Shown here: piece by piece, positions 46,079-46,990 of the stretch
Layout: every line of letters starts with the position of its first letter
How positions within the stretch are numbered: the stretch's first letter is position 1
DNA from: Candidatus Delongbacteria bacterium
GTDB taxonomy: Bacteria > UBA4055
DNA length: 46,990 bases
NCBI GenBank assembly: GCA_016937995.1
Contig: JAFGVM010000034.1
Span: 1-46,990 of the forward strand
Direction of reading: 5' to 3'
Program-made: the position numbers and the translations under genes
Notes under the pieces: model-generated
Told to the model about the DNA's origin: nothing
The model's database searches: none
What the model saw: only the letters and a program-made list of their open reading frames with translations

Positions 46079-46918
46079 ATGAACAGCGAAGCAAAAGAAA
46101 AATACAATCAGAAATTAAAACTTAAAGGATACAGCTTTAATACTATTAGTTCTTATAATCACTGCTTTGAAAAGTTTCTTGATCATTTCAGGAATAAAGA
46201 TGTTTCAACTCTAACAAAGGAAGAGATCACAGAATTTCTGTATAAAGAACATCTGAAAGGACTTTCATACGGATATCAAAATCAAATAATCAATGCCATA
46301 AAGTTCTACTATGAAAAAGTTCTCGGTAGAAAAAAGGAATACTATGAACTACCCAGGGCAAAAAAACCATTAAAATTGCCTATCGTTTTCAGTGAACAAG
46401 AAATTGTATTACTTCTGGATCAGGTTGATAATATAAAGCATCGGAGTATTTTATATCTTATCTATTCTGCAGGTCTAAGAATAAGTGAAGCAGTTAAAAT
46501 GAAAATAGCTGATATTGATTCAAAAAGAAATGTTATTCATGTGAAAGGTGCTAAAGGAAAAAAAGACAGGACTACACTCCTCTCTCAAAAACTGCTCCAT
46601 CTGCTAAGAGAATATTATAAAGTGTATAAACCAAAAGATTATTTATTCGAAGGTGAAACAGGTAAACAATATTCTATTTCAACGATACAGAAAATATTTA
46701 AAAGAGCTCTTGAAAAATCAGGAATAAGAAAAGACGCAACTGTCCATACATTACGTCATAGTTTTGCAACTCATCTACTAGAAAATGGAACAGATCTAAG
46801 ATATATACAACAACTATTAGGTCATAACAGCTCTAAAACGACTGAAATATATACTCATATAACAAAGAAGGGTATGGACAGAATAACGAGTCCATTAGAT
46901 AATCTTGATATACATTAA
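46079..46918 (+). CDS. Tyrosine recombinase (integron-integrase/XerD-like)
   Basis: The 279-residue protein has the N-terminal SAM-like core-binding domain (about 4-85) and a catalytic domain with the full tyrosine-recombinase set: Arg134 (SAGLRISE), a Lys in GAKGKKDR (159-162), His223 and Arg226 (HTLRH), His249 (LLGHNSS) and nucleophile Tyr258 (EIYTH). It ends with SPLDNL, like IntI proteins, but the spacing between the Lys hairpin and HTLRH is short, so the IntI-specific insertion is lacking. The protein is thus in the IntI-related XerC/D group. It is flanked by an inverted repeat upstream and palindromic repeats right after the stop, suggesting that these are its substrates. Confidence 0.9.
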   Translation: MNSEAKEKYNQKLKLKGYSFNTISSYNHCFEKFLDHFRNKDVSTLTKEEITEFLYKEHLKGLSYGYQNQIINAIKFYYEKVLGRKKEYYELPRAKKPLKLPIVFSEQEIVLLLDQVDNIKHRSILYLIYSAGLRISEAVKMKIADIDSKRNVIHVKGAKGKKDRTTLLSQKLLHLLREYYKVYKPKDYLFEGETGKQYSISTIQKIFKRALEKSGIRKDATVHTLRHSFATHLLENGTDLRYIQQLLGHNSSKTTEIYTHITKKGMDRITSPLDNLDIH

Positions 46919-46920
46919 AA

Positions 46921-46990
46921 AAATACGGTACTCGTACCATATATCCGGAATTTTTACGCACTAACTGGTTGGAAATACGGTACGAGTACC
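46921..46990. repeat. Pair of palindromic repeats after the recombinase, running to the window edge
   Basis: GGTACTCGTACC (46927-46938) and GGTACGAGTACC (46979-46990) are exact reverse complements of each other. Each is itself a palindrome (GGTAC...GTACC) with a 2-nt asymmetric centre (TC or GA). Both are preceded by AAATAC, giving an 11-bp direct repeat AAATACGGTAC at 46921-46931 and 46973-46983. The 40 bases between them contain TCCGGA and an AAC-TG-GTT motif. The window stops at the last base of the second copy, so the extent is unknown. Confidence 0.7.

Follow-up and report, generated by a model that had tools for sequence, protein, structure and literature searches.

Integrons capture genes and spread antibiotic resistance. 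Their cassettes insert at G^TT; the R' box of each junction therefore holds the opening bases of the cassette that follows, and R'' of that cassette's attC has to match it. Integrons are defined by the additional domain of their integrase, IntI, which is taken as the innovation that enabled integrases to use folded single strands. This domain has been found in no other protein, and intermediates are lacking (PMC7790495); mutational work, as far as it is summarized in PMC3053210 and PMC7790495, indicates that it is necessary for activity, and IntegronFinder requires it (PMC9668308). IntegronFinder 2.0 recorded one complete integron in Bacteroidetes proper (PMC9024848). Smyshlyaev et al. 2021 described an 'Integron-like' subgroup of simple tyrosine recombinases in which the CAT-domain insertion is incompletely conserved; the portions of that paper that deal with the subgroup tie neither cassette arrays nor attI and attC to insertion-less members, and treat the insertion as essential for integron function (PMC8138268). 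The literature we searched, with preprints and many subscription journals outside its reach, yielded no description of integrons whose integrase lacks the additional domain. Were a lineage to possess attI, attC and cassettes while lacking the domain, it would represent such an intermediate or else an alternative solution, and the origin of integrons could be tested in the laboratory.

Here we describe a candidate for such a lineage at the end of a 46,990-bp contig (C78, the whole of which is the window) in a Delongbacteria-like metagenome-assembled genome of 99 contigs (G000). Judged from sequence, the repeat that closes the window is very probably the attI of a chromosomal integron, where cassettes would dock, and the adjacent recombinase its integrase, from a lineage that groups with IntI and lacks the additional domain. 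The argument for attI draws on paralogues and relatives, as the window's own attI is incomplete and cassette-free and the contig ends inside it. The features of the locus are as follows.

46079..46918, + strand: integrase gene, encoding a 279-aa simple tyrosine recombinase of a family that is sister to IntI (Pfam PF00589 and PF13495)
46904..46990, no strand assigned: 87-bp segment identical to the end of contig C11, an assembly k-mer overlap that marks the start of the repeat
46919..46990, + strand: putative attI region, truncated by the contig end; two tandem half-units of ~52 bp, each AAATAC plus a palindrome
46927..46938, + strand: palindrome 1, GGTACTCGTACC, exact, with AAATAC in front; present also at C11 and C19
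46956..46965, + strand: spacer motif ACGCACTAAC, between both palindromes; contigs C16 and C39 have GGCAC(A/G)AAC there
46979..46990, + strand: palindrome 2, GGTACGAGTACC, exact, with AAATAC in front; left part of the crossover-proximal hairpin, whose right flank lies past the edge

The recombinase stop codon occupies 46916-46918, AAATAC begins 2 bases past it, and the palindromes lie 8 and 60 bases past it. A preliminary description of this DNA had noticed two 12-bp palindromes with inverted centres behind a tyrosine recombinase, and both are indeed exact and in the place it gave. Palindrome 1 is the reverse complement of palindrome 2, so that the whole unit can fold as one long hairpin, as had been proposed. 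A palindrome search allowing at most one mismatch returned 3 matches against 0.17 expected, a number reached in no shuffle, and the AAATAC/palindrome unit with a TC centre recurs at C19:24265. The repeat is found only in C11, C19 and C78, and no contig of the assembly continues it past 46990. The description's suspicion that the window edge is an assembly break was well founded. The last 87 bp of C78 equal C11:1-87 (minus strand) at every letter, and contigs C43 and C69, both of which end just past the 3' ends of recombinase genes, have exactly 87 bp in common. Two overlaps of equal odd length are expected where a k=87 assembly graph meets a repeat, so the edge reflects a break in the assembly, not biology. 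Contig ends less than 500 bp from the integrase lie downstream in 29/79 relatives and upstream in 1/79, which argues that a repeat array generally follows the integrase gene. The window's genome contains a second full integrase on C16 (74% identical) and a third on C43 (14613-15422; 53% identical); the latter has an N-terminal extension (372-aa frame) and a different downstream repeat (GCATATACCACCATTTTGGACGG..), and its contig end is the one in common with C69.

R134, K159, H223, R226, H249 and Y258 are conserved in the window integrase, and the catalytic residues are invariant across 58 proteins and across phyla, indicating that the gene is maintained. The protein has an IntI-like C-terminus (..THITKKGMDRITSPLDNL), and an SPLD-type motif at this end is common to the family and IntI but occurs in 0/14 Xer rows. 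An AlphaFold2 model of the window integrase (pLDDT 87.8) finds its best PDB match in VchIntIA (2A3V). The integron-integrase profile TIGR02249, which misses the family, scores the window protein at 214.6 bits, below the cut-off of 265, and matches it in two pieces with profile positions 180-239 missing. An alignment with PDB structures places 18 aa of the window integrase where VchIntIA has 61, and the VchIntIA residues that contact extrahelical bases (K209, Y210, W219, P232, H240 and H241; PMC3053210) fall in the missing stretch. Measured between two fixed points, the stretch is 58-60 residues long in 39/39 family members, 99-101 in all 34 canonical IntI compared over it, and 59-76 in Xer; the ~42-residue additional domain of IntI (I2 helix, beta4-5) is absent from all 39 family members compared.

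A maximum-likelihood tree joins the family with IntI (99/94), apart from Xer. Canonical IntI forms a closed clade (100/99) that leaves the window protein outside, and the family is recovered as a single clade with support of 98/83 without the long row L059 and 74/32 with it; the root of IntI and the clade lacking I2 is set by distant Xer rows only. XerA, XerC and XerD resemble the family in integrase size, domain make-up and the lack of an IntI insert. They differ in forming a separate clade (99/94), in having neither cassette arrays nor the SPLD C-terminus, and in using dif instead of attI and attC, and the crossover of the family lies outside the palindrome. The closest named relatives of the recombinase belong to Candidatus Delongbacteria. 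A scan of GTDB genomes returned 80 loci with identities of 52-78%, spread over Delongbacteria, Neomarinimicrobiota, Cloacimonas, Edwardsbacteria and many Bacteroidota, with many of these relatives being metagenome-assembled and some misnamed. A family integrase is present in 64/198 sampled Bacteroidota genomes, about a third, which would make integrons in this phylum much commoner than reported. Searches for canonical IntI above the TIGR02249 cut-off found none in G000 and none in 14/17 array-bearing genomes; 3/17 have one. Canonical IntI above this cut-off also occurs at G005:C68 and G008:C155, in genomes of the same family as the window's genome. G008 has one attC of the G000 type, and the two kinds of integrase may share cassettes.

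The attI region was assigned by alignment with the attI regions of C16, C39 and the related loci L067-L070, L073 and L078. At the place that matches the window repeat, relatives have a palindrome, ~17 nt and G^TTRRRY, followed by co-oriented cassettes and attC sites; the ~17-nt spacing from dyad to GTT is kept in Delongbacteria, and some relatives have three half-units in tandem rather than two. The ends of the paralogous recombinases on C16 and C39 show the same layout with other paired palindromes (CGCCATATGGCG; GAAGTACG(A/T)CG), then GCAC-GTT. Because these differ from the window's palindromes yet stay paired, it is the sequence that changes and the symmetry that is kept. In many relatives' loci, a TATACGC...GCGTATA-type palindrome 75-250 nt past the stop precedes GTTRRRY. 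In 11/21 loci, the first attC has an exact 7/7 GTTNNNN partner no more than 420 nt from the integrase stop, compared with 78/5,400 control windows (1.4%; p about 2e-15); in about half of the 21 loci, no match between attI and first cassette was found. C16, in the window's own genome, provides such a match, with attI reading ..GCAC-GTTAGCT and the first attC AGCTAAC (7/7). A G^TTRRRY crossover beside the integrase gene is present in the relatives and on C16, and that of the window lies past the contig end, where we predict it 11-12 nt beyond the edge: the sequence right after 46990 should be GTATTTCCGCAC-GTT, then cassettes. The right flank, ATTTCCGCAC(G/A)TT, is seen as expected in C19 and L068. 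Across 8 relatives, doubly changed pair cells number 14 in the crossover-proximal hairpin, compared with 6.5 in shuffles (0/500 reached 14), and 89.8% of its cells are paired, against 36-52% when slid. Such compensatory change favours a structural role for the palindromes, although a relaxed palindromic binding site for the integrase would look similar.

G000 also holds many decayed integrase/attI remnants. On C39 and C69 the integrase gene has lost internal sequence but kept both ends, and the fragments on C11, C19 and C65 are integrase 3' remnants with attI; a transposable repeat was dropped as a candidate on these grounds. On C65, the attI is joined straight to a phosphorylase-like gene, the final codons of which resemble the end of the integrase.

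Downstream of the family's integrases lie attC-like sites with the layout xxxxAAC-3nt-L''...L'-6nt-GTTxxxx, many of them 123-127 nt in length and those of Delongbacteria about 60-78 nt. A scan with fixed symmetric box spacing found little; when unequal spacers were allowed, a 2-3/5-6 nt geometry appeared. Canonical arrays offered few uninterrupted stems for a comparison of this geometry. In other phyla, 25 sites have paired L boxes and form the R''-L''...L'-R' hairpin, as do sites in Delongbacteria, where the attC pattern was found in G000 (9), G002 (21) and G003 (10), with 0 in the reversed control. Hits unused in training numbered 19 in 213 kb downstream of the integrase and 7 in 676 kb upstream, a ~9x higher density. 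The finder was home-made with a loose threshold, and our claim rests on a chain test: of 21 consecutive pairs, 18 have an R''(n+1) that complements all four variable bases of R'(n) (mean 1.7 and maximum 8 in 20,000 shuffles), and R'' and R' of the same site are fully complementary in only 1/21. Site finders reward own complementarity or nothing, never the chain, so the result is not circular. We regard this pattern in the sequences as decisive, in that it is the signature of cassettes cut at G^TT that were once circular. Closed or large Bacteroidota contigs outside the training set (L261, L265, L266 and L268) supplied further exact chain links. At L107, six sites bound cassettes whose larger ORFs are mostly co-oriented with the array and the integrase, and whose products include Fic, a TrmO-like protein and two PIN proteins. 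The attC hits around L093 and L145 were weak and are probably false. Several short arrays (L031, L032 and L026-L028, on G000 C32, C39, C19 and C65) have a conserved 25-bp sequence, TGACTTTATCATCTATGGGTCCGAA, behind the last attC half at their far end; it is perhaps a common array end.

Mismatches in attC stems are unevenly distributed between strands. On the array strand there are 38 A.C/C.A and 11 G.T/T.G mismatches; the A.C/C.A mismatches become G.T wobbles on the opposite strand, which folds more stably in 18/25 sites (p 0.06) and in 16/24 Delongbacteria sites (p 0.002), the energy difference being small. This asymmetry points to the bottom strand, as in known integrons, with a modest preference. 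An A.C mismatch also recurs at stem position 12, which is paired in just 4/25 sites. Put together, the integrase would cut attI at the G^TT that follows the dyad of the last palindrome by 17 nt, and join it there to the folded, mainly bottom strand of attC from circular gene cassettes, which would thereby be arrayed downstream, running the same way as the integrase gene. The palindromes would be accessory elements of attI, serving as integrase-binding sites or as a hairpin. As the integrase has no I2 module, attC polarity would have to be read by other features, candidates being the unequal unpaired spacers (3 nt and 6 nt) and the A.C mismatch at position 12.

With canonical-IntI integrons (class 1-3, Vibrio, Xanthomonas, Treponema and archaeal), the family's loci have in common an integrase with adjacent attI and head-to-tail attC cassettes, the RYYYAAC/GTTRRRY boxes, the G^TT crossover, the C-terminal SPLD and the best structural match, 2A3V. 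They differ in that the integrase lacks the ~42-residue domain, the attI palindromes are repeated, attC has 3/6-nt unpaired spacers and the recurrent A.C mismatch, and the integrase gene points along the array. The reverse-orientation integrons of Spirochaetota, which PMC9668308 mentions, are alike in the orientation of the integrase relative to the cassettes and in an attI downstream of the gene; their integrases are treated in the literature as true IntI with the additional domain, unlike the family. At L095, L103, L104 and L110, a single-strand-binding-protein gene lies directly behind the integrase (PF00436 in L110, the others by eye), a striking neighbour for a system that would recombine folded single strands.

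The window repeat could be read in other ways. Two palindromes with inverted centres beside a tyrosine recombinase might be the sites of an invertible switch, as the preliminary description had suggested, or a dif-like site. However, cassette junctions fall at G^TT, outside the palindromes, whose sequence varies among the paralogues of one genome while their symmetry is kept. No inverted partner sites were found around a promoter or gene, cassettes are co-oriented and head to tail, and the attI half-units are direct repeats; the switch is therefore disfavoured, and we consider sites of either kind extremely improbable. Hairpins that form just past a stop codon might be nothing more than a transcription terminator or REP-like element following the recombinase gene, but a T-run after the hairpins is absent, the dyad-to-GTT distance is kept in Delongbacteria, and other phyla show the same combination of palindrome and GTT, all of which makes this reading very improbable. 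The description had also called a non-integron system possible, given that the palindromes do not fit the attC consensus. On our reading they are unlike attC because they belong to the attI side, and the window's genome has attC-like sites in other places (RYYYAAC...GTTRRRY, plus L boxes), as do the regions behind the recombinase's relatives; what survives of that suggestion is that the integrase lacks the IntI-specific domain and the system is not a textbook one. Its two remaining proposals, that the palindromes form part of the neighbouring recombinase's recombination site and that they head a cassette array, agree with the attI anatomy predicted from relatives and with the attI, cassettes and attC found behind relatives and C16.

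The arrays might instead be real but built by a canonical IntI, in trans or formerly, with the short recombinase a bystander or a decayed IntI. The canonical enzymes in G005, G008 and a minority of array-bearing genomes speak for this, as does the attC that G008 and G000 have in common. Yet it is right behind the short integrase gene that the attI crossover is found, and at the 11 loci above this crossover matches the first cassette exactly; most array-bearing genomes have no IntI over the cut-off, and the short integrase keeps its catalytic residues across phyla. We therefore judge this explanation unlikely. Loss of the additional domain from a true IntI ancestor, as opposed to branching before the domain was gained, is the less probable history but one that carries some weight, given a root placed by distant Xer rows and a clade support that depends on L059. 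A lineage that never had the domain needs fewer changes because Xer recombinases are also without it, and canonical IntI is a tight clade nested nowhere inside the short family. We moderately favour a wider proposal: that a large integron sister lineage, spanning Bacteroidota, Marinimicrobia, Cloacimonadota and Delongbacteria, uses folded attC without I2/beta4-5, that integrons predate this module and attC polarity is read another way, and that the lineage supplied the cassette context of tet(X3).

On an Acinetobacter indicus plasmid (NZ_CP041297.1; L273, 6001-8230), tet(X3) has as its neighbour a truncated 'xerD/tpnF' that shares 59% identity with the window integrase across aa 42-278. Between xerD/tpnF and tet(X3) lies GGATATATACGCCATTTGGCGTATAGCCACTTGTTATGT, an attI palindrome plus GTTATGT, and behind tet(X3) is a half attC-like TACTAACAAGCAGTTTTGCAATAG that shows no match to the attI R' box. 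The gene next to tet(X3) in Acinetobacter has been described as a recombinase gene and not as part of an integron (PMC7530245, PMC8635130); it belongs to the same family as the window integrase, yet is N-terminally truncated and moved by ISCR2. The family suggests a source for the xerD-tet(X3) unit, and tet(X3) may formerly have been carried as a cassette in an integron of this kind. A 190-bp segment at xerD/tet(X3) is identical in 50 plasmid records.
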